The translations under genes were made by a program, and so were the position numbers. Shown here piece by piece: positions 1,901 through 18,395 of a DNA stretch of 53,316 bases (positions are counted from its first letter, which is position 1; every line of letters begins with the position of its first letter). This DNA comes from a virus. The stretch spans positions 1 to 53,316 of IMG/VR virus record IMGVR_UViG_3300022752_004390; one strand, written 5' to 3'. The notes below the pieces were generated by a model. It searched no databases. It saw nothing but the letters and a program-made list of their open reading frames with translations, and was not told where the DNA came from.

Positions 1901-2965
1901 TTATAGCTTTAAATCACCAAAATCTTTGTCTTCTATGTCTGTTTTTCTTGCGCCAACTTTATAGCTAGAAATCTCAGTTTCTTGAGGTGCAACTTGTACT
2001 TTGCTACTATCTAGATAACTATCATGCCATCCACCAATAGGGTTATCTTTTTGGTTGAATATCTTCTTATAACCTAAGCTCCTTAATCTGCTGTCACAAA
2101 GCCACTTTGAGTAGCCATCTAGAACCTCTGCATTTAATCCAAGTAAACTGCCATTACTAAAAAGATACTTGGACCATTCACTTTCATTCTTGGCTGCTTG
2201 TTCATAAAAAGCATAGATTTTATCTTCGCTTTTCTTGACTATACTTGTAAAACCTTCTTTATCTTCGTCTCTTAATATTTTAAGTAGATTTTGACTTACT
2301 GCAAAATGAAGAGCTTCATCACGTTGAATAAATTTTATAATTTTAGAGTTGCCTTCCATCTTACCACGATATCCAAAATAAAAAGAACAAGCAAAAGAAA
2401 CGTAAAATACAAGACCTTCCATTACGTTAATAGAAAGAATAGCGTCAAAAATCTTTTGTTTAGGGTCTTTCTTTTCATCATCGCCAAGAATTTTATCGAA
2501 ATTATCTCTAATCAATTGGGCGCGACTTGTAATTTCTTTATCTTCCATAATGCTATCAAAGAATTTAGTTGCATCTGGATAAACATTATTCAAAAGATAA
2601 GAATAAGAATAACTATGAATACCTTCAAATTGAGCCCATGTATTCATACAAATCTCAAGTTCTGGATTACTTACATAGTCTTTAAGAGAATGAATACTTC
2701 TGGAAAGCATACTATCGCCAAGAGTTTGAAATCTTAGATTACTATCAAAAACAAATCTTTCTGTATCTGTTAGATTATTGTAATCACTGCGATCTTTTCC
2801 TAAAGCTATTTCATGAGGCCACCAAAAATTTTCATTTTGTTTTTTAAACAATTCAAAAAATATTGGATATTTAAACCGATCGTATCTTTGAAGATTAAGA
2901 TCTTCACCAAGAAATAATGGTTGCTTTGTGGTGTCTATATTCTTAAAATTTAATACTGTTTTCAT
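1901..2965 (-). CDS. nrdB: class I ribonucleotide reductase, beta (radical) subunit
   Basis: The 354-residue NrdB builds the diiron-tyrosyl radical cofactor that NrdA needs to reduce ribonucleotides for phage DNA synthesis. The metal ligands can be read: an Asp in FDSNLRFQTLGDS, the Glu and His of FEGIHSYSYSY with the radical tyrosine at the expected place four residues after the His, a Glu in the helix with VMEGLVFYVSFACS, and the last Glu and His in QRDEALHFAV. All residues for an active class Ia/Ib-type tyrosyl-radical subunit are present. It starts three bases after the nrdA stop codon, so the two genes form an operon. The C-terminus (DKDFGDLKL) is the flexible tail expected to dock to NrdA. 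Confidence 0.95.
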   Translation of the reverse strand: MKTVLNFKNIDTTKQPLFLGEDLNLQRYDRFKYPIFFELFKKQNENFWWPHEIALGKDRSDYNNLTDTERFVFDSNLRFQTLGDSMLSRSIHSLKDYVSNPELEICMNTWAQFEGIHSYSYSYLLNNVYPDATKFFDSIMEDKEITSRAQLIRDNFDKILGDDEKKDPKQKIFDAILSINVMEGLVFYVSFACSFYFGYRGKMEGNSKIIKFIQRDEALHFAVSQNLLKILRDEDKEGFTSIVKKSEDKIYAFYEQAAKNESEWSKYLFSNGSLLGLNAEVLDGYSKWLCDSRLRSLGYKKIFNQKDNPIGGWHDSYLDSSKVQVAPQETEISSYKVGARKTDIEDKDFGDLKL

Positions 2966-2968
2966 GTG

Positions 2969-5230
2969 TTATAACTTACACGCACCGCTAGAACAATCTC
3001 TATCTTCTTTTTGGTCTAGGGATTGTTCTCTATCTCCATCATCTGTATTATTATAATAAAGGCTAATTAATCCAAGACTATATGCGTACATGATTTCTTT
3101 CATTACTTTAGCGTCTGGTAATATATTATTTTCATAATGACTATAGTTATAGTATACATTAGTTGATATAGCCATGTCAATATATTTTTGAATTACTGCA
3201 TTTATTTTTAATAATCCATTATTATCTTTAAGATCATAAGCTAATTCATAATTATCATCATACTTACCAATTCCTGGAACCATTACTGGAAGCTTGCCCA
3301 TTTTACTAGTTTTATAAGTAATAAGACTACGAATAGGTTCAACACCATTTGTGGAGGATTGAATAACCGAACTACTTTCACAAGGCATACAGGAAGATAA
3401 TGTTGAGTGTCTTAAACCATGTTCTTTAATTTGTTTTCTTAGCTTTTCCCAATCAAGAGATAGTTTTCTTTTACATATTTCGTCTACTTTATCTTTGTAA
3501 GTATCAATTGGTAATATGCCTTTAGAATATTTTGTATGATTGAATTTTTCACACTTACCTTTTTCTTTGGCTAATTCTAGACTACTCTTTAAAAGATAAT
3601 ATTGAAAGTATTCCATCCATTCATCAATTACTGGTAGTGACTTATCTGAACTATATTTTAATTCATTTTTAGCAAGAAAAGCTGCAAGATTAGTAATACC
3701 AACTCCAAGACTTCTACGTTTTTTAGCAAAATTTTCAGCAGCAACATTAAAGTAATCTTGAAGTTCAATGATTTCATCAAGAAATCTTACGATAAGATCG
3801 CAAGTCTTTTCAAGATCCTGCCAGTTTTTTATTTCTAGCATATTTACTGCCGAAAGAATGCACATTCCAATTTCCCCATTCTTGTCATTGTAATCGTTTA
3901 ATGGAATAGTTGGATGGATAACTTCTGTGCAAAGATTACTCATCGTAACTTTATCAGACCAAGCTCCATGCTCGTTAGCATGATCTACATTAAGAATATA
4001 AATACGACCAGTTTCAACTCTTTCTTTAATTATCAAAGAGAATAATTTTCTAGCAGATACTTTCTTTTTTAATTTTAATTTTTTAGATTCGCATTCTTTA
4101 TATACTTTATCAAAGTCTTTAGTTCCCCAAGCTTCGTAAAGCTCTGGAACTTCTGAATTATTAAATAATGTGATATCTTCATCTTTCAAAACTCTATCAT
4201 AGAATAATTTACTCATGCCAACAGTATAATCAAGCTTACGAACTCGATTGTCATCTGTTCCAGCATTATTCTTTAGTACAACAATATCTTCAATTTCATA
4301 ATGCCACCATTGAATATTGCAAGTTGCACTTCCACCTCTCAATCCATTCTGCTGCCAAGCTTTTACGCTACTTTCATAGATTTTTAAAAATGGAATTAAA
4401 CCAGTATGAACAACTTCGCCATTCTTGATTGGTGATCCAATAGCTCTAATCTTGCTAATATCAATACCAATTCCACATCTATTAGCTGTGGCCATACTAA
4501 CAGCAGTTGCACTAGCTGTAATACTTTCTCTTGTGTCATCTACGCCAATTAAACAACAACTAGCGTAATTTCTACTAGAAGTTCTTACTCCAGCCATTAC
4601 TGGCGTTGGTAAATTAATTTTATGCTTACTAATAGCGTCATAAAATTTTCTTACATAATTCAATCTTGAATCTACTGGATATTTCGCAAAAGCATAAGAC
4701 GCAATTAATATATAAGCAAATTGTGGGGTTTCATAAATTTGACCAGTGGTTCTATTTTTAATTAAATATTTATCGCAAAGCTGTTTAATTCCAGCGTAAG
4801 TGAAAGTAAAATCCCTTTCATGATCAATGAACTCTCCGATCTTATTTATTTCGTCTTCAGAATAATTTTCTAGAATTGAACTATCGTATACTTTATTCTT
4901 TATCCCTTGATTTAAAAACTCTGATAGTCTTGGAGCATGCTTTCCTTTCCAAACGTCTTTTCTTAATTGATAATTTAGAAGTCTAGCGGCAACAAATTGA
5001 TAATTTGGTTTTTCAGTTGAAATAAGATTAGCTGCACTTTCAATCAATAGGTTGTGTATCTCTTTGCTTGTGATACCATCATGTATGTTTATCTTTGCAT
5101 TGATTTCAATATCTGTTAAACTCACTCCAGCGTAACCATCAATTGCCCAGTTGATTACTTTATTTATTTTTTCTACATCAAATTTTTCTGTTGCACCATT
5201 TCTTTTCTTTATAATAACATTCTTGCTCAT
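2969..5230 (-). CDS. nrdA: class I ribonucleotide reductase, alpha (catalytic) subunit
   Basis: The 753-residue NrdA has an N-terminal ATP-cone regulatory domain (about residues 4-95, starting VIIKKRNGATEKFDVEKIN), then the ten-stranded barrel with the active-site cysteines (SCCLIGVDDTRES; SNLCTEVIHP with the thiyl-radical Cys; LSAVNMLEI), and a C-terminal CSSGACKL, the shuttle cysteine pair that re-reduces the enzyme. The ATP cone predicts dATP feedback control. It is upstream of nrdB in one operon. The ATG is preceded by a weak AGAAAG. The 460 bases upstream are not ordinary spacer: they hold a strong promoter and a large structured RNA pointing into this gene (see 5355-5650). Confidence 0.95.
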   Translation of the reverse strand: MSKNVIIKKRNGATEKFDVEKINKVINWAIDGYAGVSLTDIEINAKINIHDGITSKEIHNLLIESAANLISTEKPNYQFVAARLLNYQLRKDVWKGKHAPRLSEFLNQGIKNKVYDSSILENYSEDEINKIGEFIDHERDFTFTYAGIKQLCDKYLIKNRTTGQIYETPQFAYILIASYAFAKYPVDSRLNYVRKFYDAISKHKINLPTPVMAGVRTSSRNYASCCLIGVDDTRESITASATAVSMATANRCGIGIDISKIRAIGSPIKNGEVVHTGLIPFLKIYESSVKAWQQNGLRGGSATCNIQWWHYEIEDIVVLKNNAGTDDNRVRKLDYTVGMSKLFYDRVLKDEDITLFNNSEVPELYEAWGTKDFDKVYKECESKKLKLKKKVSARKLFSLIIKERVETGRIYILNVDHANEHGAWSDKVTMSNLCTEVIHPTIPLNDYNDKNGEIGMCILSAVNMLEIKNWQDLEKTCDLIVRFLDEIIELQDYFNVAAENFAKKRRSLGVGITNLAAFLAKNELKYSSDKSLPVIDEWMEYFQYYLLKSSLELAKEKGKCEKFNHTKYSKGILPIDTYKDKVDEICKRKLSLDWEKLRKQIKEHGLRHSTLSSCMPCESSSVIQSSTNGVEPIRSLITYKTSKMGKLPVMVPGIGKYDDNYELAYDLKDNNGLLKINAVIQKYIDMAISTNVYYNYSHYENNILPDAKVMKEIMYAYSLGLISLYYNNTDDGDREQSLDQKEDRDCSSGACKL

Positions 5231-5354
5231 ATTTTCTTTCTAAGGTAAAGAATAGTTTACAGTGTTTTTAATTTTTATAAAAGAAAAATAATCAAACTAG
5301 TGTTAATAACTTTATATCATACTAAACAAGTGTACTGATTTTATATCTTTTCTT

Positions 5355-5650
5355 AATAAATATTTCCCAATGAGCTCCTTACAAAGCAAAGCTTTCCCTG
5401 TATTTTACTACAGGATTGCTCGAGCCATTAGTTCTATTTCCCAATTGAGTCCGTAAGCCTTTCGGCCACCTAACACTTATCGGATGTCGGTAGGATCATC
5501 CATCGCGTGTTAGCCCTTACACCTACACTCCCAGAATTTCTTCTGGTTTCTCGGGTCGCAAGCTTTGATAGCGTTGCCCGACGTTAAGAACTAATCTAAC
5601 TCACCATTTTGAGGAGTATGGCAAACCTTTTCGCTTTGCAGCGAGATGTC
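5355..5650 (-). ncRNA. large structured RNA of unknown class, upstream of nrdA
   Basis: No protein is encoded here; on the minus strand the sequence has many perfect helices, several capped by GNRA tetraloops: a 5-bp hairpin with GCAA loop (5644-5631), a stem with TCGGG/CCCGA at its base (5581-5551), a 6-bp hairpin with GAAA loop (5546-5531), a 7-bp helix CTAACAC/GTGTTAG (5513-5507 with 5476-5470) enclosing a GGATG/CATCC stem, a 3-bp GCC/GGC hairpin with GAAA loop (5466-5457), and a 6-bp hairpin CCTGTA/TACAGG (5414-5397). A perfect 8-bp long-range helix TTAGTTCT/AGAACTAA (5594-5587 with 5435-5428) closes most of it. Base composition is clearly richer in G+C than the neighbours. It lacks the conserved blocks of RNase P RNA, tmRNA and group I introns. 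The 3' end is uncertain: no terminator is visible, so it may be a free RNA or the 5' leader of nrdAB. Confidence 0.75.
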
Positions 5651-5655
5651 GTATT

Positions 5656-5684
5656 ATAATACATCAATCAATATATTTTGTCAA
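5656..5684 (-). promoter_or_regulatory. sigma70-type promoter of the structured RNA
   Basis: On the minus strand a perfect TTGACA (5684-5679), 17 bases, then TATTAT (5661-5656) with an overlapping TATAAT. Transcription should start near 5650, exactly at the 5' edge of the folded RNA. It lies directly downstream of the glycosyltransferase gene ending at 5692. Confidence 0.8.
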
Positions 5685-5691
5685 ATAAAAT

Positions 5692-6372
5692 TTATTCAAT
5701 CATTTTATAGTAATCATGATCAAAATGTGGATTTAAATTTATTATTCCATTTTCTTTTATACAAAGTTTTTCGGCCCAATCGTAGATTTCTTTATTAGTT
5801 TTATTTCCCATACCAGAAATATGATAAGTATTCATTCCCCACCTATATATCATAGTAGGCTTTTTTGATGATATGAAAATTTTAGCATTATAATTATTCA
5901 TTGTTCTCATATCTTCAAGATAAGTTGTGTCATGACTTACAACTTTATTTAAATATTTTTTAGTAAAAATAATACCAGTATTAACATTTCCACTTATGGC
6001 TTTAAATTCATTGTTTAAAAAGTAGTAATGAGTACTACTTCTATATATATCATATCCAGGATTTTCTTTTAAGGTTTCTTTTGATATATTAATCGCATTG
6101 TCAGCTAATAAATCGTCATCCTCTAATCTATAAATATAATCATTCTTACATTGTGTATAACCATAATGATACTTGCTTTCAATAGAAGGAAATCGTTCTT
6201 TTAAATTTACAATTTTAATATTTGGATGATTTAAAATATATTCTACATTTTTATTATCATTAATAATAACCATCTCATCAGAATCATTTAAATTTTTTTG
6301 ATTTAAAAAAGAATATATAGCTTCTTCTAATAGATGTTTCCTTTGATATGTTATAGTAAGAAAGGAAATCAT
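5692..6372 (-). CDS. GT2-like glycosyltransferase
   Basis: A 226-residue GT-A fold protein: it begins MISFLTITYQRKHLLEEAI, typical of the nucleotide-binding start of family GT2, and has YRLEDDDLLADNAI near residue 90, the metal-binding acidic motif. It is shorter than many GT2 enzymes but keeps the core fold. It probably adds a sugar to a cell-surface or virion glycan. The gene is divergent from the DUF5856-type gene at 6418 and shares a short symmetrical promoter region with it. It is transcribed toward the structured RNA but that RNA has its own promoter. Confidence 0.75.
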   Translation of the reverse strand: MISFLTITYQRKHLLEEAIYSFLNQKNLNDSDEMVIINDNKNVEYILNHPNIKIVNLKERFPSIESKYHYGYTQCKNDYIYRLEDDDLLADNAINISKETLKENPGYDIYRSSTHYYFLNNEFKAISGNVNTGIIFTKKYLNKVVSHDTTYLEDMRTMNNYNAKIFISSKKPTMIYRWGMNTYHISGMGNKTNKEIYDWAEKLCIKENGIINLNPHFDHDYYKMIE

Positions 6373-7186: not shown

Positions 7187-7192
7187 ATGATT

Positions 7193-8053
7193 ATGTCTAA
7201 AGTAATTTTATTAGGATCAAATGGGTTTGTTGGATCTTACTTTAAGACTTTTTTAGGAAATGATAATGAACTTGTTACTATAAATCGCAAAGAATGTGAT
7301 CTTCTTAATAAAGATAATTTATTTAAAATCATTAAATCTGTAAAAACAAATTATATTGTTAATTGCGCTGGATATACTGGTAAACCAAATGTAGATGCTT
7401 GTGAGAACAATAAACAAGCATGTTGGAATGGTAATGTTACTTTAGCCAAATATTTATCAGATATATGCTCTACATTAAATATTAAATATATACAAGTTTC
7501 AAGTGGATGCATATATACTGGAACAAAAGGCAAAAATGGTTTTAAGGAAATAGACGAACCTAATTTTTCGTTTGATCATCAACCTTGTTCTTATTATAGT
7601 GGAACAAAAGCTATTATGGAAGATCTATTAAAAAATGATCCTAATGCATATTTATGTAGATTAAGAATACCATTTAACAATATATCAAATCCTAAAAACT
7701 ATATAACTAAATTGATTAATTATAATAAATTACTAAATGCAGAAAATTCATTGACAAATATTAACGATTTTATAAAAGCTTGCCATTATTTAATAACAAA
7801 AAATTGTGAAACTGGAATATACAATATAACCAATACTGGATCAATTTATACAAAACAGGTTGTAAAATATATTAATAAACATATAACCGACAAGAGATTT
7901 GATTTTTTCAAAAATGAAAAAGAATTTTATTCTACAGCAGCAAAAGCTTTAAGATCAAACTGCATTTTAGATAATACAAAATTAAGAAAAACTGGATTTA
8001 AAATAAAAGATGTCGATTCAAGCATTGAAGAATCTATTAAAAACTACGCATGA
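7193..8053 (+). CDS. RmlD-like NAD(P)-dependent sugar reductase (SDR family)
   Basis: A 286-residue extended short-chain dehydrogenase. The N-terminal ILLGSNGFVGSYF is the GxxGxxG nucleotide-binding loop, VNCAGYTGKPNVDACE resembles the NAA-YT-VD-AE motif of dTDP-4-dehydrorhamnose reductases, and YYSGTKA carries the YxxxK catalytic pair. It may reduce the product of the dTDP-glucose 4,6-dehydratase encoded at 19537, but an epimerase partner (RmlC) is not seen, so the final sugar is unknown. The start is taken as ATG 7193 rather than ATG 7187 because 7187 abuts the -10 box. It overlaps the next gene by four bases. Confidence 0.75.
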   Translation: MSKVILLGSNGFVGSYFKTFLGNDNELVTINRKECDLLNKDNLFKIIKSVKTNYIVNCAGYTGKPNVDACENNKQACWNGNVTLAKYLSDICSTLNIKYIQVSSGCIYTGTKGKNGFKEIDEPNFSFDHQPCSYYSGTKAIMEDLLKNDPNAYLCRLRIPFNNISNPKNYITKLINYNKLLNAENSLTNINDFIKACHYLITKNCETGIYNITNTGSIYTKQVVKYINKHITDKRFDFFKNEKEFYSTAAKALRSNCILDNTKLRKTGFKIKDVDSSIEESIKNYA

Positions 8054-8901
8054 AAAATATAATTTTTATTTCAGATTACAGTTTGTCGCATTCCGCTGGA
8101 GGCGCACAAAGAAGTAATGATATAATTATTCAAAAAGGCAGAGAATTAGGATACTCTATATTAGAAGCAAATTTTAATTTTAATTTTAATACCGAAGATT
8201 TTAATCAATACGATATACTTATCTCATCTAATCTAGAAGCGATATACAAGCTAAATCCTAATATAATAGATAAAATAGCTTCTCATAAATATCATGTCAG
8301 ACTTGAACACGATTCAAATAGATACTTAAAACAAGATGATAGAGAAAAACTTTTTAGATCATGTAAAAAAACTGTATTTTTAACAAATTTTCATCATCAA
8401 TTATTTATTAATAATTATGGTGATATTTTTAATAATGTTAAAATAGTAGCAGACCCAATAGATACAGATATATTTTATAATCAAAATCAAGAAAGAGAAG
8501 ACAAAATTTTGTACGTTGGATTTATGCATGAACTAAAAGGTACATTATCATTTTTTGAATTTGCTATGGATAATCCTCAATTACGATTCGTTGTTGCAGG
8601 ATGGGGAACAAAAGTTTTTGATTTCTTAGCTAGAAATACTCCAAATGTAGAATACTTAGGGACAATTGTCCATGAGGATATGCCAAAACTTTTTAATAAA
8701 TATGAAACACTTTTTTATAGTCCAATTATACCAGAACCATTCTGTAGATCAGTTGCAGAAGGTACATTATGTGGAATAAAATTAATGTCATCTAGCTCAA
8801 ATATTATAGGATGCATGCATGAATTTCGAGAATTAGGTAAAGAAAAATTTATTGAAAATTGTAAAAATGCACCAGAAATTTTTTGGAAATCAATTATATG
8901 A
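8050..8901 (+). CDS. GT4-like glycosyltransferase
   Basis: A 283-residue GT-B protein. It begins with a GT4-like loop SAGGAQRSND after the first strand, has ILYVGFMHELKGT near residue 155 and FYSPIIPEPFCRSVAEGTLC near residue 220, where PEPF-R-VAEG matches the E-x7-E region that holds the donor diphosphate. It sits in the cassette with ATGA overlaps at both ends, so translation is probably coupled to its neighbours. Confidence 0.75.
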   Translation: MKNIIFISDYSLSHSAGGAQRSNDIIIQKGRELGYSILEANFNFNFNTEDFNQYDILISSNLEAIYKLNPNIIDKIASHKYHVRLEHDSNRYLKQDDREKLFRSCKKTVFLTNFHHQLFINNYGDIFNNVKIVADPIDTDIFYNQNQEREDKILYVGFMHELKGTLSFFEFAMDNPQLRFVVAGWGTKVFDFLARNTPNVEYLGTIVHEDMPKLFNKYETLFYSPIIPEPFCRSVAEGTLCGIKLMSSSSNIIGCMHEFRELGKEKFIENCKNAPEIFWKSII

Positions 8902-9692
8902 TTTATGATTGTTTTAATTTTTTGAACGAAGCTCATATTTTAGAAATTAGGATAGAAGAATTAAAATCCGTAGTTGATAAATTCGTAATTTGTGAATCGG
9001 ATATAACTGTATCCAATGTTATAAAACCTTTTTTTCTAGAGCAATCAGAAATTTATAATAAATATAAAGATAGAATCATATACCATAAATTAGAAATCGG
9101 TCAACAAATCTTGTCGTCTCAATTCAATGATCACAACAATGAATACAGACATACGTTAATGTATAATCAAAGAGATGCAATTATGAAAAGTTTATCTAAT
9201 TGCAACGATGAAGACATTATAATGTTTTCAGATTTAGATGAAATACCTACCGCGAAAGCAGTTAAACAATTAAATAATTTGCCATGCATTCTAAACTTAA
9301 GAGGCTTTTATTGGTATTTAAATACCCCAATATTCTCCCCAGTAAATCATTACTGGTTCCCATCAGTAATATGTGATTTTTATAAAAATATTAAAAATAA
9401 ATCATTTAATGAATTAAGAGAATCAAAATATAGTTTTAGACAAGTTCCAGAAGCAGGATGGCATTTTTCTCATTTAGGAGACGAAAATCAAATAGCATAT
9501 AAAATGCTAGCAAGCTCTCATAGCGAATATCACGCTCCACATTACACAGGCCCAATAAATATTAAAACAAGAAGAGAAAATTTAATAGATCCTTACGACA
9601 GAGGTGGATTTATCATTAATAAAGATGAGTCTATTATATTACCAGAATATGTATTAAATAATAGACAAAAATTTAATTATCTGTTAAAATAA
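8898..9692 (+). CDS. GT17-like N-acetylglucosaminyltransferase
   Basis: A 264-residue protein resembling family GT17 (beta-1,4-mannosyl-glycoprotein beta-1,4-GlcNAc transferases). Visible marks are the start MIYDCFNFLNEAHILEIRI, then VVDKFVICESD, a central MFSDLDEIP with the DxD metal motif, LNLRGFYWYLN, and the conserved GWHFSHLGDENQI segment. The true substrate in a phage setting is unknown. Start: ATG 8898, which overlaps the previous TGA as ATGA; an upstream TTG is less likely. Confidence 0.75.
   Translation: MIYDCFNFLNEAHILEIRIEELKSVVDKFVICESDITVSNVIKPFFLEQSEIYNKYKDRIIYHKLEIGQQILSSQFNDHNNEYRHTLMYNQRDAIMKSLSNCNDEDIIMFSDLDEIPTAKAVKQLNNLPCILNLRGFYWYLNTPIFSPVNHYWFPSVICDFYKNIKNKSFNELRESKYSFRQVPEAGWHFSHLGDENQIAYKMLASSHSEYHAPHYTGPINIKTRRENLIDPYDRGGFIINKDESIILPEYVLNNRQKFNYLLK
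9662..9690 (+). promoter_or_regulatory. leaderless-type promoter before the radical SAM gene
   Basis: TAGACA (9662-9667), 17 bases, TAAAAT (9685-9690), then six bases to ATG 9697. It lies inside the end of the preceding gene. Spacing matches the other leaderless-type promoters in this window; the boxes are weaker. Confidence 0.45.
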
Positions 9693-9696
9693 CTAT

Positions 9697-10794
9697 ATGG
9701 AAAATAAACATAAAGATTTAACCCAAAAATATAGCACTTGGGGCGATAAACTATTACAGCATACAGATGTTCTATATTCTATTCAAAAAGAGAAAGTTTT
9801 CAAACCAATAACAATTCAATTAGCCCCAATTGAAGCTTGTTCTAGCGGCTGTCCATTTTGTTCTGTTGCAGAAAGACCACTTAAAACATACATGCCATTT
9901 GAAAAGATTAAACAAACTCTTAAAGATTTTAAAACTCTTGGAGCTAAAAGTGTTGAGATTACTGGAGGTGGCGAGCCATTAATTTATAGAGACAAAGATA
10001 CTGGAGACGACATTAACTCTATTATAGAATATGCAAATAGCATAGGATACGATATTGGAATAATTACAAATACATTAAAGCTGAATAAGATTAAAAAAGA
10101 AAATTTTGATAAAATAGAATGGATAAGGATTAGTTTAATTAAATTAGACGAAGGATATAATCCAGAAGATTATGATTTCTGCGGTTTTCCAGCCGAAAAA
10201 ATGGGATTATCATATATCATATATGAAGGAGAAGAGGGAACTGGGACTAGATTAGGAAAAAAATACGAACCAACTAGTGCAGAAACAATAAGAAGAATAG
10301 CAAAAGTCTTAGAGCTTAACCCAACTTTAAAGTTTGTAAGAATTGCTGGAAACTGCTTAGTCAAGGGGAATAATGCAAGCATAAGAAATAAATTTAAAGA
10401 TACAATTGATGAAGTAGATAAGTTTAATAAAATCTTTATTAAAGATATTGGATATGATGATTCTCCATTTAATGACGGATGTTACGTTGGAATGATTCGT
10501 CCTTATATAGCTCCAGATCCACATGGAAAAAATCAATACTACGTCTACATTTGTACTAGTCATGTTTTAAATAAAAGAAATTATGATTTGGATTACTCGC
10601 TTTGCAAAGTAGAAGATATTCTTGATACTTGGAATAATATAAATCAAAAATTTAAAGACGGATCTTATCCTTACGAAGTAAAGGGTAATAAAGGAGAAAA
10701 TTGGGAAAATACATGCAAATACTGTTATTATAAATTTAATAATAAATTACTTCATACAGTATGTCAAGAGATGCCAAATAAAAATTTTCCATGA
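9697..10794 (+). CDS. radical SAM enzyme with C-terminal cysteine cluster
   Basis: A 365-residue protein with the radical SAM signature CSSGCPFC (CxxxCxxC), which binds the 4Fe-4S cluster that cleaves S-adenosylmethionine. ITGGGEPLIY follows at the expected GGE position. The C-terminus has CKYCYYKF and a final HTVC, suggesting an auxiliary iron-sulfur site as in SPASM/twitch enzymes. It lies in the middle of the glycan cassette and overlaps the methyltransferase-like gene by ATGA, so a sugar or lipid-carrier modification is plausible. The substrate cannot be read from sequence. Confidence 0.8.
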   Translation: MENKHKDLTQKYSTWGDKLLQHTDVLYSIQKEKVFKPITIQLAPIEACSSGCPFCSVAERPLKTYMPFEKIKQTLKDFKTLGAKSVEITGGGEPLIYRDKDTGDDINSIIEYANSIGYDIGIITNTLKLNKIKKENFDKIEWIRISLIKLDEGYNPEDYDFCGFPAEKMGLSYIIYEGEEGTGTRLGKKYEPTSAETIRRIAKVLELNPTLKFVRIAGNCLVKGNNASIRNKFKDTIDEVDKFNKIFIKDIGYDDSPFNDGCYVGMIRPYIAPDPHGKNQYYVYICTSHVLNKRNYDLDYSLCKVEDILDTWNNINQKFKDGSYPYEVKGNKGENWENTCKYCYYKFNNKLLHTVCQEMPNKNFP

Positions 10795-11399
10795 AATTTG
10801 AAAAAGAATACTATACTACAAATAATTACAAAGATTACTTGTTAAGAAAAGGACGTTATCAAAAATTAGCTAAAGAAATTGATGAATTCTTATATACTCT
10901 AGGTTTTAATTTCAAAAATAAATCAGTATTGGATTATGGATGTGCGGTAGGCTTTTTAATGGAAGGATTAAAAGAAATTGGTTATAAAAAAATTAAAGGT
11001 ATAGAAATATCTGAATGGGCAAAATCAATAGTTAAAAGCAAAAAACTCACAATTTTAAATTCAAATAAAATTCCACATCAAGATTTAGTGTTTTTTCTTG
11101 ATGTTTTAGAGCATATACAAGAATCAGAAGTAAATAAAATTTTAAAAAATATAAATACAGATTTTATATTAGTAAGAATTCCAGTATGCAAAAAAGATAA
11201 TGGAAATTTTTATTTAGAAATATCTGAAAAAGATTCAACTCATATAAATAGAAAAACCAAAAAAACTTGGGTTAATGTTTTTAATAGCAACGGATTTGAT
11301 TTAGTTTCTTTTATTAATTTGAATATAATCTATAATAGCGAGGGCGTATTTTGTGCTTTATTTAAAAATAAAAAAATTAGTCTATTAGATATTGTATGA
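10791..11399 (+). CDS. SAM-dependent methyltransferase
   Basis: A 202-residue class I methyltransferase. VLDYGCAVGFLMEGL (motif I, with a GCAVG glycine loop), IKGIEISEWA (acidic residue for the ribose) and VFFLDVLEHI (motif IV-like) are as in the Methyltransf_11/23 families. Its position between a radical SAM enzyme and a glycosyltransferase points to methylation of a sugar or glycan end, as inference. It overlaps both neighbours by four bases. Confidence 0.75.
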   Translation: MKFEKEYYTTNNYKDYLLRKGRYQKLAKEIDEFLYTLGFNFKNKSVLDYGCAVGFLMEGLKEIGYKKIKGIEISEWAKSIVKSKKLTILNSNKIPHQDLVFFLDVLEHIQESEVNKILKNINTDFILVRIPVCKKDNGNFYLEISEKDSTHINRKTKKTWVNVFNSNGFDLVSFINLNIIYNSEGVFCALFKNKKISLLDIV

Positions 11400-12127
11400 T
11401 AAAAATAATCTCTTGCTTCTGGAATGCCTCTAGATATATCGAAGGATGTATAAATTCAGTAAAAAATCAATCTCTTATAGATTTTAAAATGTATCTAATA
11501 GATGATGTTTCCACGGATGATACTATAGAAAAAATAAAATCATTAATAGACAATGATAAAAGGTTTGAGCTTATAGAGAATAAAGAGAAAAAATTTAAAT
11601 TAAAAAATATAGATGAATTAATTAGAGATGAGAATAAAATTAATAATGAAGACATTATAATTGAATTAGATGGAGACGATTCACTTGCCCACTATGATGT
11701 TTTAAATTTTATAAATAACAAATATAAAAATAACTCAAATCTATGGCTTACCAATGGAAGTTTTATGTATTCAGATGGAAGATATGGATTCTCATCTCCA
11801 GTTAATTACAAAAATATAAGAACCGATTTTTTTACATTTTCACATTTAAGAACTTGGAAAGCTCATTTATGGAAGAAAATTAAAAAAGAATCTTTTTTAG
11901 ATGAAAATAATGAATATTTCAAATCTGCAGCAGACGTAGCGTATTCTTTTCCTATGATTGAAATCGCAGGAAGTGATCACTATGAATTTATACCAAATAT
12001 ATTATTAATTTATAATGACGAGAATATCTATGCTGACAATAAACCTCATAGTGCAGCTGGAGGAATATCAGAACAAAGCAAGACTGCGAATTATATTAGA
12101 TTAAAAAAATCTTATAAACCTTCATAA
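11396..12127 (+). CDS. GT2-like glycosyltransferase
   Basis: A 243-residue GT-A enzyme: IISCFWNASRYIEGCINSVK is the classical GT2 start, YLIDDVSTDDT follows, and IELDGDDSLAH near residue 93 is the DxD metal site. No transmembrane segment is visible, so it is a soluble transferase of the cassette. ATGA overlap with the methyltransferase upstream; one base separates it from the next gene. Confidence 0.85.
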   Translation: MIKIISCFWNASRYIEGCINSVKNQSLIDFKMYLIDDVSTDDTIEKIKSLIDNDKRFELIENKEKKFKLKNIDELIRDENKINNEDIIIELDGDDSLAHYDVLNFINNKYKNNSNLWLTNGSFMYSDGRYGFSSPVNYKNIRTDFFTFSHLRTWKAHLWKKIKKESFLDENNEYFKSAADVAYSFPMIEIAGSDHYEFIPNILLIYNDENIYADNKPHSAAGGISEQSKTANYIRLKKSYKPS

Positions 12128-12128
12128 T

Positions 12129-13115
12129 ATGAAGATAAAATTTTATTTTCCAAGATGGATTTTTCCCAATAACCTAGGAGATAGCTTAGTTTGTACATTT
12201 GTTCCTAAAATTTTAAAAAAAATTTATCCAAATTCAGAATTAGAAATAATTACTTATGGCTTTTTGATTGATCTATTCAAATTGGATAAGAACGTAGATA
12301 TAGTTAGAGAACCAAATAAACAAGAACTATATTTAAATTTTCAACAATATGCATTTTCAGACGAACAACAAGAAGACATTAAAGTAATATACCCAGACTG
12401 GCATCCAAAGGTATTTTCTTTTTGGAAAGATAATTATAAGATGCTAGAAGATCATTCCACCGCAAATATTATAACAGTAAATTATCTTCTACAATTAAAA
12501 TTAGAACATTTATTATTTGATAAAGATATTAATTTTTTAGGATCTTTAAATATTGAAAGTAATCGCAATACTACAGAATTCATTAATATAGGCATAGTTC
12601 CTACCACTAAACTTTCTGGCAAAACCAATCCTCACCCAAGTTGCGATGGAAAAGGTTTTAGATTTAATGGCACAAAAGGATTGGAGTCTTGGAAAGAACT
12701 TATATCTACGATGAAAAACTTAAATAATAAAATAAAAATATTTGAATTCTCTAAAGAAAATTTTGGTCTTGGAGATTATCATTTTGAAGATAATGGTGAC
12801 ATTTTTACTTTAATTAAAAATGTTGATTTTATGGATTTTGGAATTATGAGCGATGGTGGTATTCATCACGCTTTCAATATAAGAAATAAACCAGTAGTGT
12901 TGTTTCAAGCGTGTTTAATTAATAAAGTAGAATTCTTTAAATTGGGCAATGCATTCTTTCCAGAGCACTTGCATTTAGAATGCAGAAAACATTGTCCTTC
13001 ATATTTTCTTCAAACTTTTGGTGGAGAAAATAAATCTTTATCATGCAAAAGAGAATGCGAAAATTTATCGCCAAAATTGCTTGGAGAATATATAATACAT
13101 AACGTTATAAAATGA
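12129..13115 (+). CDS. GT9-like (heptosyltransferase-type) glycosyltransferase
   Basis: A 328-residue protein with the GT9 layout: NNLGDSLVCTFVPKILKKIY near the N-terminus matches the GDxL-xxPxLxxLKxxxP pattern of ADP-heptose:LPS transferases, and FGIMSDGGIHHAFNIRNKPV near residue 238 matches the donor-binding S-DG--H-A segment. It has a C-terminal cysteine-rich stretch (CRKHCPSYF, later CKREC) unusual for GT9. It probably uses an NDP-sugar; the acceptor is unknown. Confidence 0.7.
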   Translation: MKIKFYFPRWIFPNNLGDSLVCTFVPKILKKIYPNSELEIITYGFLIDLFKLDKNVDIVREPNKQELYLNFQQYAFSDEQQEDIKVIYPDWHPKVFSFWKDNYKMLEDHSTANIITVNYLLQLKLEHLLFDKDINFLGSLNIESNRNTTEFINIGIVPTTKLSGKTNPHPSCDGKGFRFNGTKGLESWKELISTMKNLNNKIKIFEFSKENFGLGDYHFEDNGDIFTLIKNVDFMDFGIMSDGGIHHAFNIRNKPVVLFQACLINKVEFFKLGNAFFPEHLHLECRKHCPSYFLQTFGGENKSLSCKRECENLSPKLLGEYIIHNVIK

Positions 13116-13810
13116 AAAATGCAATATTCAGTTTAGTTTTAGGTAATCCAGAAAAATATAAATACAGTTTAAATACCATAGCTAACTATGCTAAAAAATA
13201 TCAAACGCCATACTTTGTATGCAACCAACAAAAAATACTATTTATAAATCATTATTTTGAAAAATTTCAATGTTTAGGATTGCTTAATGAATACGACAGG
13301 GTTTTATGTTTAGATGGAGATATATTAATAACTCCACATGCAAGAAATATATTTGATGTATATAATGACACAGATTATTTTTATGCATTTAATGAAAATG
13401 ACGAAGTAGAGCATATGAATAGAGATTCATGGATTGATACTTATTCTCCAGATTTTGACTGGCCAATTTATAATAATAGAAAAATGTATTTTAATTCTGG
13501 ATGCGTAATTTATTCCAAAAAGCATAAAGATATTTTTAAAACTATTCAAGAAATTCCCTTCACGCAAAAATGTTTTAGTATTGATGGAGGAGAACAAACG
13601 GCGTTAAACTATGCGATAGCAAAAAATAAAACTCCATTCAAATCACTAGATCATTGTTTTAACAGAATGGATCTTGGGCAGTATGATTTTAAAAATGATA
13701 GATATCAAGCCGATTTTATACATTATGCAGGACCATGCAAATATGGTAATGGAAATAAAAACGAAACAATAATTCAAGATTTTGAAAATTTATATGGAAA
13801 AATCAATTAA
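13112..13810 (+). CDS. GT8-like glycosyltransferase
   Basis: A 232-residue GT-A protein with VLCLDGDILITPHARNIFDV (the DxD motif and following helix typical of GT8 and related galactosyltransferases) and MYFNSGCVIYSKKH (the FNSGV-like motif). A late HYAG sequence near residue 210 fits the final metal-binding His region. Overlaps the upstream gene by four bases; the next gene starts inside its last 17 bases. Confidence 0.7.
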   Translation: MKNAIFSLVLGNPEKYKYSLNTIANYAKKYQTPYFVCNQQKILFINHYFEKFQCLGLLNEYDRVLCLDGDILITPHARNIFDVYNDTDYFYAFNENDEVEHMNRDSWIDTYSPDFDWPIYNNRKMYFNSGCVIYSKKHKDIFKTIQEIPFTQKCFSIDGGEQTALNYAIAKNKTPFKSLDHCFNRMDLGQYDFKNDRYQADFIHYAGPCKYGNGNKNETIIQDFENLYGKIN

Positions 13811-14516
13811 AATATTATCTTTAGTAATAAATTACGGCACAAATCAATCGAATTTTTGTCAGAATTTAATTGATTCTTTAATAAATATTGAATACGCAAA
13901 CGATATCATAGTATTCAGTAGTTCTAAAAATAATTTAAATAATTGCAACGAAATTATTTCTCAAAATTACAATGGATTTGATTTTGGAATAAATGCAATA
14001 GATTACTTAAAAAATAATAAATTAGATCAATATACCCATATTCTTGTAACAGAAAATGATTTACTTTTTAAAAATGATAATTTTAAAACTTTCTTTAATC
14101 ACGAACATAAATTAAATCAAAATGAAGCTATAGGTTTTTTAAGGTATGAATTTTTAAATGGGCAAAGATATTTGATTGACGGAAACTATGGCATAAATAA
14201 ACTTTCTTTTACTAGTCCGACAAAAGAAATACTAGAAATTAATGAATCTTATTTTACCCCAATTAATTGTCATCAAGGATGTTTTTTTCTACGCAAAGAT
14301 CAATTGCAAGAAGTTTTAGGTAAAATTAATATAGGTATAGAATTAGAAGAAAAAGTTTCTAAAGTATATTTTGCAAACCAATTTCCTGGAAGTGATATTG
14401 GAATAAAAAGAAAAATACCCATAAAAGAAATAGAAAATATATTAATACATCATCAACCTAATAAATATGTCAATATATACAAAGACTTGCCTAATATACA
14501 TGAGTTAAATAATTAA
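13794..14516 (+). CDS. putative GT-A type glycosyltransferase, family unclear
   Basis: A 240-residue protein. THILVTENDLLFKN near residue 85 is a possible acidic metal motif and NCHQGCFFLRKDQL further on resembles acceptor-loop regions of GT-A enzymes. No closer family is recognised. It is placed among glycosyltransferases by context. ATG 13794 is chosen over an upstream TTG that would lengthen the overlap. Confidence 0.5.
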   Translation: MEKSIKILSLVINYGTNQSNFCQNLIDSLINIEYANDIIVFSSSKNNLNNCNEIISQNYNGFDFGINAIDYLKNNKLDQYTHILVTENDLLFKNDNFKTFFNHEHKLNQNEAIGFLRYEFLNGQRYLIDGNYGINKLSFTSPTKEILEINESYFTPINCHQGCFFLRKDQLQEVLGKINIGIELEEKVSKVYFANQFPGSDIGIKRKIPIKEIENILIHHQPNKYVNIYKDLPNIHELNN

Positions 14517-14518
14517 AT

Positions 14519-15223
14519 ATGAATTCTTATGCAATTATAATGATTGGTTATAAATCTGTTGATAATATTATAAACAGAATAAATGAAGCTTATACAGATG
14601 GATCTCCAAATGAATTCATCTTAATAATAAATTACTACTCAGAAGAAAGTTATAAAATATTAGAATATGCAAAGAATGAACCAAGGATAACGCGATATAT
14701 ATATTGTAGTCAAAATATTGGATTCGCTAAAGCTATAAATTTAGGAGCAAGTATATCTAAATCCGATAATTTAATTATTGCTAATGATGATTGCGCTACT
14801 AATTCTCACACACACAAAAACCTTTCTCAAGCATTAAATGAAAAAGAAGAGAATGGAATCTCATGCGTAGAAATTGGAGGTAAGCATGGCGATATAATTC
14901 CTATTCCAAAAGGTTTTTTACTAGCGATAAAGAGATCTATAATATTAAAAATAGGTGGATATATTTATGATGAATGCGCATCACCTTTGGGTTGCGAAAC
15001 AGAACTAACATATAGGGCAAAAAATTATGGTTATGATTTAATATTAGCAAATAATTGTCACCATCAACATGTCCATGATATATCTAATCACCCGCAAACA
15101 ATGATCAACTATCTTGGGGTAGAAATGTCTCCGCAAGGCGAAAAAGCTTTTCAATTTGATACGGAAAGAATGTTAAATGAAAAAATAAATAAATGGAAGG
15201 AATTGATAAAAAATGAAAATTAA
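14519..15223 (+). CDS. GT2-like glycosyltransferase
   Basis: A 234-residue GT-A protein: YAIIMIGYKSVDNIINRI opens the nucleotide-binding domain, NIGFAKAINLGASISK is the usual N-G-A-N/G-G segment, and LIIANDDCATN is the metal-binding motif. FLLAIKRSIILKIGGYIYDE matches the region where GT2 enzymes have a hydrophobic stretch and GGFDE. Related to rhamnosyl-type GT2 transferases in pattern; specificity unknown. Confidence 0.8.
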   Translation: MNSYAIIMIGYKSVDNIINRINEAYTDGSPNEFILIINYYSEESYKILEYAKNEPRITRYIYCSQNIGFAKAINLGASISKSDNLIIANDDCATNSHTHKNLSQALNEKEENGISCVEIGGKHGDIIPIPKGFLLAIKRSIILKIGGYIYDECASPLGCETELTYRAKNYGYDLILANNCHHQHVHDISNHPQTMINYLGVEMSPQGEKAFQFDTERMLNEKINKWKELIKNEN

Positions 15224-16040
15224 TTTTTTTGATAAAAATACAGGTAAAGATAAAAACATAAATATGCATTGGCCACAAGATGTTGTCGAATACATCAAAC
15301 CACCTATGTTAGAGTTCGATGGAATATCTTTATTTACAGACGAAATGTGTTTTCATGAAGTGGTAGATCATGTAAAATCTAAATATAAAATAGCATGGGC
15401 GATGGAAAGTCCAGTTATTAAACCATATGTAGAATCTTATATCCAACAAATTGAGCACAAATTTGATTATATCTATATGTTTAATCCTCCAAAAAATAAT
15501 CCAAAATATAAACAATCTTATTTTGGTGCATGCTGGTTGACTAAAGACAATTGTAAGATTTATGAAAAAAATAAATTATTATCTATAGTTGCTTCTAATA
15601 AAAACTATGCTCCTGGCCATAAATTAAGACACGAAATTATTGCGAAAAAACTACATAAAGATTTAGAACTATGGGGAAGTGGATATAGATGGTTTAGTGA
15701 TAAACCAGAAGACAGAGTCCAACCATTTAAAGATTATATGTATGTAATAGCTATTGAAAATTGCCAATATCCAAATTATTTTACAGATAAAATTATAGAT
15801 TGTTTTGCTACTGGATGTATTCCAATTTATTGGGGAGATCCAAATATGAATCAACATTTTAATAAAAATGGGTTCTATACATGGAACACTATAGAAGATT
15901 TAATTGAAATACTTGGTAAAATTGGTCCAGAAGATTATTATAATAAAATGCCATATATCAAAGAAAATTATGATAAATTTGAAAAATTTGCATCTCCAGA
16001 TAAATGGCTGTACGATAATTGTTTTAAAATATTAAGTTAA
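15213..16040 (+). CDS. GT10 family (alpha-1,3/4-fucosyltransferase-like)
   Basis: A 275-residue protein with the hallmark C-terminal block of GT10 enzymes: VIAIENCQYPNYFTDKIID followed by FATGCIPIYWGDPN, the GDP-fucose binding region. LSIVASNKNYAPGHKLRHEI precedes it, as in bacterial fucosyltransferases. GT10 enzymes use GDP-fucose or related GDP-deoxyhexoses. The cassette encodes GDP-mannose 4,6-dehydratase (18395), which makes the precursor of such sugars, so donor supply and transferase sit together. Overlaps the previous gene by 11 bases. Confidence 0.85.
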   Translation: MKINFFDKNTGKDKNINMHWPQDVVEYIKPPMLEFDGISLFTDEMCFHEVVDHVKSKYKIAWAMESPVIKPYVESYIQQIEHKFDYIYMFNPPKNNPKYKQSYFGACWLTKDNCKIYEKNKLLSIVASNKNYAPGHKLRHEIIAKKLHKDLELWGSGYRWFSDKPEDRVQPFKDYMYVIAIENCQYPNYFTDKIIDCFATGCIPIYWGDPNMNQHFNKNGFYTWNTIEDLIEILGKIGPEDYYNKMPYIKENYDKFEKFASPDKWLYDNCFKILS

Positions 16041-16102
16041 TATTAGAAATTTTTTAATATATAGGATATAATCCTCTACGAAAGAACATAATCTAGAAGA
16101 GT
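16041..16102 (+). promoter_or_regulatory. probable promoter with leader and Shine-Dalgarno-like site
   Basis: The longest gap inside the cassette. TATAAT at 16067-16072 preceded by GG; the -35 region is poor. About 30 bases follow to ATG 16103, with AGAAGAG just before the start. This is one of few places in the window with a conventional leader and purine-rich ribosome site. Confidence 0.4.
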
Positions 16103-16912
16103 ATGAATAATATACTTATATTAGGATCAAGTGGGCAGATAGGTTCTGCTCTTAAGAATTACTTATCAAATAAGTACAATGTAAAAGAATTTGATATAGA
16201 AAGATGTTCAAAAGAAGATTTGCGAAATAGATATGTTTTAGACGAATTGCTAAAAGATACAGATTTTGTATTTTTCTTGGCTTTTGATGTGGGTGGATCT
16301 ACTTATTTAAAAAAATATCAAGATACAAAAAAATTCATGGATAATAATATAAAGCTTATGCTTTATACTTTTGAATCTTTAGAAAAATATAAAACACCAT
16401 TTATATTTGCTTCAAGCCAAATGGCAAATATGAGTTATTCAAATTATGGTATTTTAAAACATATTGGTGAAAAATACACTCAAATGTTGAATGGTATTTT
16501 AGTTAAATTTTGGAATGTTTATGGTTTAGAGATGGACGAGAACAAGTTTCATGTAATTACTGATTTTATTAAAGCCGCTAAATATCAAAAACATATATCA
16601 ATAAAAACATCTGGAGAAGAAGAAAGGCAATTCCTTCATGCAGATGATTGCTCTGCATGTTTAGAGATTTTAATGAATAAATATTCAGAACTCGCAAGAG
16701 ATAAAAATTATCATATTACTAGTTTTGAATGGACTAAAATTATCGATATAGCTAAAATAATAAGCTCAATATCTAATACAACTTATTCAACTGGCGAAGG
16801 ATACGACATTCAATTAAATAAAAAGAATGAAGCAGATCAATATATTTTGAATTTTTGGCAACCTAAAATTACTTTAGAAAATGGAATAAAAGATATATAT
16901 AATCAAATATGA
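16103..16912 (+). CDS. NAD-dependent epimerase/dehydratase (SDR family)
   Basis: A 269-residue extended SDR. ILILGSSGQIGSAL is the dinucleotide loop, FIFASSQMANMSYSNYGILK includes the Ser region and YxxxK catalytic pair, and VKFWNVYGLEMDEN matches the N-YGP segment of sugar epimerases. Somewhat short for the family. It probably modifies a nucleotide sugar made by the enzymes at 17.4-20.5 kb; the exact reaction is not readable. Confidence 0.75.
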   Translation: MNNILILGSSGQIGSALKNYLSNKYNVKEFDIERCSKEDLRNRYVLDELLKDTDFVFFLAFDVGGSTYLKKYQDTKKFMDNNIKLMLYTFESLEKYKTPFIFASSQMANMSYSNYGILKHIGEKYTQMLNGILVKFWNVYGLEMDENKFHVITDFIKAAKYQKHISIKTSGEEERQFLHADDCSACLEILMNKYSELARDKNYHITSFEWTKIIDIAKIISSISNTTYSTGEGYDIQLNKKNEADQYILNFWQPKITLENGIKDIYNQI

Positions 16913-17442
16913 TATATGATATTTATATGGAGAAATGCAATACTCCATCAGACATTAATGAGCATCTACCAGTAATTTATGATTATGTTAAAAAATGTAA
17001 TCATGCAACAGAATTTGGAGTTAGAGATGTAGTTTCCACTTGGGCAATTCTAGCTGCAAAACCAAATAAAATTGTATCTTATGATATATCTTATCATCCT
17101 AATATTTCCTACGCGCAAGAATTAGCAAAAAAAGAAAATATTAATTGGCAGTTTATTCAAGGAGATACTTTAGCTGTAGACATAGAAGAAACAGATTTTT
17201 TATTTATTGATACGTTACATATTTACGAACAACTTAAAAAAGAATTAAATATTCACGCTAAAAAAGTTAAAAAATATATATGCTTTCATGATACAACAAG
17301 TTTTGGAGAAGTTAGCGAATATGGTGGAGTTGGTTTATGGAAAGCTATACAAGAATTTTTAAATGAAAATAAAAATTGGAAACTTTTAGAAAGAAGAACT
17401 AATAACAATGGTTTTACAATCATAGAAAAAACACAAGAATGA
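16909..17442 (+). CDS. class I SAM-dependent methyltransferase-like protein
   Basis: A 177-residue protein resembling Methyltransf_24/cephalosporin hydroxylase-type folds: ATEFGVRDVVSTWAILAA in the motif I position, KIVSYDISYHP for the acidic ribose contact, DFLFIDTLHIYEQLKKEL (the IDG-H-Y-qv pattern) and YICFHDTTSFGE. The glycine loop is less canonical. It could methylate a sugar hydroxyl, inferred from context. Confidence 0.6.
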   Translation: MIYDIYMEKCNTPSDINEHLPVIYDYVKKCNHATEFGVRDVVSTWAILAAKPNKIVSYDISYHPNISYAQELAKKENINWQFIQGDTLAVDIEETDFLFIDTLHIYEQLKKELNIHAKKVKKYICFHDTTSFGEVSEYGGVGLWKAIQEFLNENKNWKLLERRTNNNGFTIIEKTQE

Positions 17443-18395
17443 AAAAAGCAATAGTATGCGGAGCAGGTGGTTTTATAGGATCACATTTAGTAAAAAGATT
17501 AAAAGACGAAGGATTTTGGGTAAGGGGAGCAGATTTAAAACTTCCACTATATTCCCAAAGTCCAGCGGATGAATTTTTAGTTGGAGATCTAACTGACCCT
17601 AATTTTGTAAAAAATGTAATATGTGAAGATGTAGATGAATTATATCAACTTGCAGCCGACATGGGTGGAGCAGGATATATTTTCACTGGAGAAAATGATG
17701 CAAACGTAATGCACAACTCAGCACTCATCAATTTGAATATTGCTCATGAAGCAGTTATTAAAAAAGTTAAAAAAGTTTTTTATAGTTCTTCTGCTTGTGC
17801 TTATCCAGAACACAATCAATTAGATCCAGAGAATCCGAAATGTTCAGAAGAATCAGCTTATCCAGCAGCCCCAGATAGTGAGTATGGTTGGGAAAAGTTA
17901 TTTAGCGAAAGAGTTTTCTTGGCATATAAAAGAAATTATGGACTAGATGTGCATATTGCTAGATATCATAATATTTTTGGTCCAGAAGGAACATATAAAG
18001 GAGGCAAGGAAAAAGCTCCAGCCGCACTCTGCAGAAAAGTAATAGATGCAAAAGATAATGGAGAAATTGAAATTTGGGGAGATGGAAAACAAACTAGATC
18101 ATTCTTATATGTTGATGAATGCATAGACGGAACAATTAGATTAATGAGATCAAACTTTGAGGGACCAGTTAATATTGGTTCAGAAGAAATGATTTCTATT
18201 AATGATTTTGCAAATATGATCATAGGGTTAAGTGGGAAAAATATTACTATTAAAAATATTCCTGGCCCACTAGGAGTCAGAGGTAGAAACTCTGATAATA
18301 AATTAATAAAACAAAAATTAAATTGGGCACCTTCAAGACCTCTCAAAGAAGGTATTCAAAAAACATTCGAATGGATTAAAAGCCAAATAAATTAA
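17439..18395 (+). CDS. GDP-mannose 3,5-epimerase-like SDR
   Basis: A 318-residue extended SDR. GAGGFIGSHLVKRLKDEGFW is the dinucleotide site; YQLAADMGGAGYIFTGENDA is the distinctive stretch of GDP-mannose 3,5-epimerases (LAADMGGMGFI-like); SSSACAYPEH and EYGWEKLFSE hold the Ser, Tyr and Lys; RYHNIFGPEGTYKGGKEKAP is the substrate loop, with the GGKEKAPAA sequence shared with plant and bacterial GME. It would convert GDP-D-mannose to GDP-L-galactose and/or GDP-L-gulose. It overlaps the GDP-mannose dehydratase gene by one base. Confidence 0.85.
   Translation: MKKAIVCGAGGFIGSHLVKRLKDEGFWVRGADLKLPLYSQSPADEFLVGDLTDPNFVKNVICEDVDELYQLAADMGGAGYIFTGENDANVMHNSALINLNIAHEAVIKKVKKVFYSSSACAYPEHNQLDPENPKCSEESAYPAAPDSEYGWEKLFSERVFLAYKRNYGLDVHIARYHNIFGPEGTYKGGKEKAPAALCRKVIDAKDNGEIEIWGDGKQTRSFLYVDECIDGTIRLMRSNFEGPVNIGSEEMISINDFANMIIGLSGKNITIKNIPGPLGVRGRNSDNKLIKQKLNWAPSRPLKEGIQKTFEWIKSQIN

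Follow-up and report, generated by a model that had tools for sequence, protein, structure and literature searches.

A pseudoknotted phage RNA of about 300 nt with a conserved predicted promoter and two repeats that change in step

The 2'-deoxyguanosine and adenosylcobalamin riboswitches are cis-regulators known upstream of ribonucleotide reductase (nrd) genes. ROOL is a phage- or prophage-encoded, highly structured RNA with pseudoknots, GOLLD is an ornate phage-encoded RNA, neither of them with a known function, and OLE is an ornate structured RNA whose dimer has a symmetric A-A contact from chain to chain (PMC12286853). OLE RNAs are about 600 nt long and occur in extremophile and anaerobe Bacillota (PMC12054373). 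Here we describe an RNA that, like ROOL, is phage-encoded and highly structured with pseudoknots, but is much shorter, is built from other helices and conserved sequences, has no Rfam match and, in the DNA analysed, does not lie beside a tRNA island. With GOLLD it shares an ornate fold encoded by a phage; however, many GOLLD members exceed 800 nt, and neither an Rfam match nor a common 3' domain was recognised. It resembles OLE in its ornate fold, and the symmetric A-A contact of OLE is a lead for the identity-locked strands described below, whereas size, the Bacillota origin of OLE and the lack of any sequence or Rfam match separate the two. As with the riboswitches, a ribonucleotide reductase gene follows this structured RNA in the DNA analysed, but the RNA has no Rfam match, the sole test applied to that comparison, and is often not upstream of nrdA in relatives. 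The family is new, being absent from Rfam 15, and large phage RNAs, the loose class to which it belongs, have precedents.

The window analysed is the whole of IMG/VR virus record IMGVR_UViG_3300022752_004390, 53,316 bases, which encodes a DNA polymerase, a DnaB-like helicase, a UvsX-like recombinase, a thymidylate synthase and a central tail fibre J protein. A first-pass annotation of the sequence had pointed to a non-coding, GC-rich island with TTGACA-17-TATTAT at its 5' edge. Both features were recovered: the island has a GC content of 41-49% against about 20-31% in its surroundings, and on the minus strand a sigma-70-type promoter (5684..5656) matches the consensus at 11 of 12 positions. 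The island has a folding energy of -89.6 kcal/mol, compared with -74.3 ± 4.9 kcal/mol for shuffled sequences (z = -3.1). The RNA, about 291 nt, would extend on the minus strand from about 5649, where ACAT (ACAU in the RNA) lies close to the expected +1 position, to about 5359; its predicted 3' end lies near the second copy of the repeat treated below. This interval, 5359..5649, is matched at 298.8 bits by R1, a covariance model of type A sequences explained next. The gene is flanked on the same strand by an open reading frame (5692-6372) on one side and by nrdA on the other. The latter (2969..5230) encodes a class Ia ribonucleotide reductase alpha subunit (NF006578, 908.6 bits, cut-off 813), and adjoining it is nrdB (1901..2965, minus strand) for the beta subunit (NF006576, 334.9 bits, just below the cut-off of 346).

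Homologues were collected starting from a scan with NrdA, which gave 80 loci. Clear sequence matches upstream of nrdA were designated type A, and a gapped DNA pattern yielded further copies and the recognition of a diverged type B. Searching with model R1 brought up another 28 loci beyond type A (types B, C, D and E; E from 1e-22 to 1e-12), the majority of which do not precede nrdA, and a pattern for the 3' repeat added dozens more copies. In total, 66 distinct IMG/VR sequences of 290-320 nt fall into five sequence types (A-E) with one shared structure. A second covariance model, R2, built from types B and C only, recovers types A, D and E (E from 1.5e-18 to 6.7e-8 for A and E), with one significant copy per record. 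The carriers are apparently a group of uncultured aquatic phages, and the RNA was seen only in one phage clade, whose NrdA proteins are about 86% or more identical to that of the window; tests of generality are limited by this confinement. Neither model detected a homologue near nrdA in the wider NrdA clade or in the whole genome of Pelagibacter phage Mosig. DNA similarity searches of isolate phages and plasmids gave no convincing match, and two exact signature patterns were absent from 84,980 bacterial and archaeal genomes.

The shared structure comprises nine local or long-range helices and two pseudoknots. Type E was left out of the count since one of its helices could not be located; in the other types 4006 of 4105 pair cells (97.6%; 65 RNAs) are complementary. 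On the minus strand of the window the RNA begins with hairpin H1 (UCGC/GCGA; 5631..5644), complementary in all 260 pair cells across the types counted, and H2 (GCCAU/AUGGU; 5603..5622; 361 of 362). The long-range helix P1 follows, its 5' strand GAGUUAGAUUAGUUC (5588..5602) pairing with GAACUAAUGGCUC (5422..5434) in 690 of 694 cells with many compensatory changes. The first-pass annotation had already noted an 8-bp long-range helix in the island, and this holds as ATTAGTTC/GAACTAAT. P1 changes sequence between types while keeping its pairing, as AUUAGUUC/GAACUAAU in A, UAUCAAUCC/GGAUUGAUA in C and UAGUAUAUAGUCCC/GGGACUAUAUACUA in D. Within P1 lie H3 (CGGG-CAA-CGC ... GCG-A-CCCG; 5552..5580; 260/260 pair cells for H3a and 233/233 for H3b), H4 (CCAGAA GAAA UUCUGG; 5531..5546; 374/405), H5 with its inner H5b (CUAACAC ... 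GUGUUAG, inner GGAUG/CAUCC; 5470..5513; 438/438 and 248/265, respectively) and H6 (GGCC GAAA GGCU; 5456..5467; 404/416). H7 (UCCUGUA/UACAGGG; 5396..5415; 427/457) stands beyond the 3' strand of P1. An inner H3 pairing of GCAA with UUGC proposed by RNAalifold was rejected, types B-D supporting GG-CAA-CG..CG-A-CC. Three GNRA tetraloops had been reported for the island; the window copy does carry GCAA in H1 and GAAA in both H4 and H6, but the GNRA form is not kept in all homologues.

Covariation in homologues had been named at the outset as the test of a structured RNA, and it is strong. The full type A structure pairs in 98.2% of cells and contains 22 pairs in which both partners change; shuffled controls had 9.7 ± 1.7, and none of 500 reached 22. 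Types B and C together have 35 such pairs against 17.2 ± 2.6, again with none of 500 shuffles reaching the observed value. When the structure was displaced along the alignment only 31-50% of cells paired (33-47% for type A slid by 1-3 columns). This covariation, together with the recovery of types A and E by a model built from B and C only, shows that the RNA family is real.

Both pseudoknots are additions to the first-pass account. In PK1, GUAGG (5522..5526, minus strand) pairs with CCUAC in the H5b loop (5490..5494) in 311 of 315 cells, with covarying versions GUAGG/CCUAC, GUAGC/GCUAC, GUGGC/GCCAC and GUGGA/UCCAC and, read by eye, GUAGUU/AACUAC in type E. In PK2 the strand CAAAGCUU in the H3 loop (5560..5567) is complementary to AAGCUUUG (5387..5394), which lies at the end of a GG[G/U]AAAG element present in 66 of 66 RNAs. 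Across 65 RNAs the PK2 stem occurs in 14 versions of 6-9 bp, every one fully complementary, among them CGGAGCUU/AAGCUCCG, CAAAGCUU/AAGCUUUG, AUAGGCU/AGCCUAU, AAGGGCU/AGCCCUU, GAAGACUU/AAGUCUUC and CGCAAGCUU/AAGCUUGCG. A hairpin AAAGC-UCC-GCUUU that RNAalifold predicted for type A was dropped in favour of PK2, whose strands covary in all types.

Two pseudoknots and an invariant GG[G/U]AAAG recall the complexity of catalytic RNAs, and a ribozyme or the remnant of a self-splicing intron was considered. When cmscan was run against all 4227 families of Rfam 15 with permissive E-value limits of up to 1-5, the window RNA had no match at the gathering score; its sole match at E up to 5 was a chance hit to an lncRNA (14.1 bits against a cut-off of 80). 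No known family was matched by any of the RNA types tested, including riboswitches, ROOL, GOLLD, OLE, group I and II introns, RNase P and small ribozymes. This Infernal search had been proposed with the first-pass annotation, whose statement that the island shows no RNase P RNA, tmRNA, group I intron or cobalamin riboswitch agrees with the outcome. The group I model RF00028 gives no match in the RNA, yet easily detects a true group I intron within the same phage group (L027, 10563-10794; 59.3 bits). GGGAAAG presumably resembles the CR-I element of RNase P RNA; the CR-V element ACAG-N-AA is absent from the window RNA. Furthermore, the RNA interrupts no open reading frame, which like the Rfam results makes a catalytic or intron origin highly improbable. 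ARAGORN and Rfam likewise identify no tmRNA within the RNA itself, though both detect a tmRNA elsewhere in these phages. Open frames inside the RNA are short and vary in length among homologues, and a literature search of partial coverage returned no description of it.

The position of the RNA raised the possibility of a long regulatory leader of ribonucleotide reductase, which the first-pass annotation had offered beside a new ornate phage RNA. As a cis-acting leader or riboswitch the RNA would control nrdAB, and it does lie shortly before nrdA, in the same orientation, in the window as well as in types A, B and E. The annotation had seen no terminator between the two, and we found no terminator-like site there either, so that readthrough into nrdA is possible in type A. 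However, synteny rejects the leader. In types C and D the RNA is on the strand opposite to nrdAB and downstream of it, or at unrelated loci; a riboswitch is expected always to lie upstream of the gene it regulates and to share its transcript, and the positions compared here in types C and D are antisense or distant. At locus L061 an open reading frame of 371 aa separates the RNA from nrdA. Moreover, nrdA has an upstream element of its own, CTTT..TGTAA, at 63 of 64 loci, both those that have the RNA before nrdA and those that do not; this element is probably the nrdA promoter. No riboswitch family of Rfam was matched, and regulation of nrdAB in cis is thus extremely improbable. The element itself lies at about 5230-5350 in the window and also occurs upstream of nrdA in L004-L067.

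The predicted promoter of the RNA is conserved: TTGACA is present in 63 of 66 homologues, the 17-nt spacer in 66 of 66, at a fixed distance to the RNA, and the 5' end reads A[C/A]AU in all 66. Judged from these comparisons the RNA is very probably an independent gene rather than a leader. The suggestion of a new ornate phage RNA is supported by this conserved promoter, the strong covariation and the absence of an Rfam match in the types tested, whereas that of a reductase leader fails on variable locus and strand, the intervening frame in L061 and the separate nrdA element.

A direct repeat reported for the island was confirmed: ATTGGGAAATA occurs exactly at 5445-5435 and 5371-5361, and the window has no further exact copy. 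In the RNA each copy has the form GGA-N4-AUUGGGAAAUA, R1 at 5435..5452 and R2, at the RNA 3' end, at 5361..5378 (both minus strand). In 66 of 66 RNAs R1 and R2 are identical at 10-11 of 11 positions of the 11-mer, compared with a mean of 6.5 of 11 between RNAs with different repeats. The 11-mer itself changes from AUUGGGAAAUA in the window to AUUGGGAAGUU, ACUGGGAAGU or AUUGGAAAGU in relatives, AAAGAAAAGUU in types B-C and AGGGAAAAAG in type E. The prefixes toggle jointly (GGA/GGA, AGA/AGA, GAA/GAA), with TGA/AGA as the single exception. Columns 206 and 282 of the type A alignment switch between G and A in perfect step (18 of 18); no other column follows this toggle, the next best carrying only 0.38 of its information. 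Gene conversion could be the source of such lock-step repeats, but the four bases inside each repeat remain distinct in R1 and R2, an observation that speaks against simple gene conversion.

No intramolecular partner of the repeats is consistent across all types. The H1 loop CCCAAUU does not pair with the repeats in the RNA of the window, in L059 and L066 or in types B-D, and a short GAG/CUC-type contact from the P1-H3 junction to the H5b loop is possible but weak. Since the two copies stay identical while the 11-mer changes between phages, R1 and R2 are probably read alike by one putative partner. That they read each other is less likely. In its specific form, recognition by identity through parallel homo-base pairs (A-A, G-G and so on), within or between RNAs, we regard it as very unlikely; if true, an identity-paired helix would complete the fold as a new kind of conserved RNA-RNA recognition, and its signature, two segments always changing to the same letters, could be searched for elsewhere.

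Purine-rich repeats outside helices could also pair with U/C-rich sites, which would make the RNA a base-pairing regulator of several target messages. In ten phage records, however, a 9-11-nt repeat or its complement occurs only 0-2 times outside the RNA, not above the motifs of other phages, and the window contains 48 near matches to the repeat where 52.3 are expected. With neither a third repeat copy nor a complement enriched in the window or these ten records, and no trans targets found within the phage genomes, base-pairing regulation is decidedly unlikely.

For the shared-partner reading we propose the following mechanism. Transcription would start at the conserved ACAU just past the sigma-70 promoter, and host RNA polymerase would make the RNA early in infection, as established knowledge of promoters leads one to expect from a host-type promoter. 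The transcript would fold into a compact scaffold of 290-320 nt held by P1 and the two pseudoknots, presenting R1 and R2 as short, mostly purine-rich sites whose places in its 3' part are fixed. Two identical sites outside the helices of a rigid fold suggest titration or scaffolding of a single factor; acting in trans, the RNA would most likely sequester or hold together two copies, or dimer halves, of one host or phage RNA-binding factor. We give this explanation as a whole, the independent gene together with its two-site trans action, about an even chance.

The strong host-type promoter implies an abundant early RNA, which would also fit an RNA that mimics one of the host's or acts as its decoy, RNA polymerase, ribosome or RNase substrates being examples, and the same phages carry a tmRNA, itself a translation RNA. 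The absence of similarity to any Rfam family in every type tested, and of the two signature patterns from the bacterial and archaeal genomes searched, makes mimicry rather unlikely. A protein-free homo-oligomer or cage in the manner of ROOL and GOLLD, with the locked repeats or loops touching other copies, is an unlikely alternative for which ROOL, GOLLD and OLE are precedents (PMC12286853). The elaborate pseudoknotted fold is phage-borne, no single protein gene adjoins it in every context, and strands locked in identity would be apt for symmetric contacts from copy to copy. Nevertheless, the RNA does not reach half the length of GOLLD, with many members above 800 nt, lacks an Rfam match to ROOL, GOLLD or OLE, and has no conserved self-complementary loop that we could recognise.

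Whichever partner is involved, this is an added RNA family, spread across a phage clade, with a double-pseudoknot fold open to experiment. At about 300 nt it is short enough for routine biochemistry, its promoter should suit laboratory RNA polymerase, and two sites apparently read alike provide a built-in clue to the partner. Finding what binds R1 and R2 would show the role of phage RNAs of the ROOL and GOLLD kind in infection.

Several neighbouring features were recorded. A tmRNA gene is present in 42 of 48 phage records (among others L009 9837-10224, L014 9807-10196, L123 1003-1389 and L037 9868-10286); in types C and D some 300 bp separate it from the RNA gene. The tags it encodes are unusual, for example AKTAKYKGHISARVSLVEETASVA and AKTAKLKGSFSLRVSHNKKHLIAA. 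The 53-kb window, which may be incomplete, yielded no such gene. Between RNA and tmRNA in types C and D, divergent from the RNA, lies a small conserved open reading frame (MEIVKNKARW..., about 69-78 aa, no family assigned; L009 9576-9812). Near the RNA in some relatives is a phage nucleotide-synthesis cluster (L135 7728-8720; L174 1222-2334 and 2480-2902), with adenylosuccinate-synthase-like (below the PurA cut-off and weaker to PurZ), IMP dehydrogenase/GMP reductase-like and deaminase-like genes. In the window, a long run of open reading frames on one strand (7187-20514) contains, judged by eye, putative glycosyltransferases, sugar-nucleotide enzymes and a radical SAM protein.
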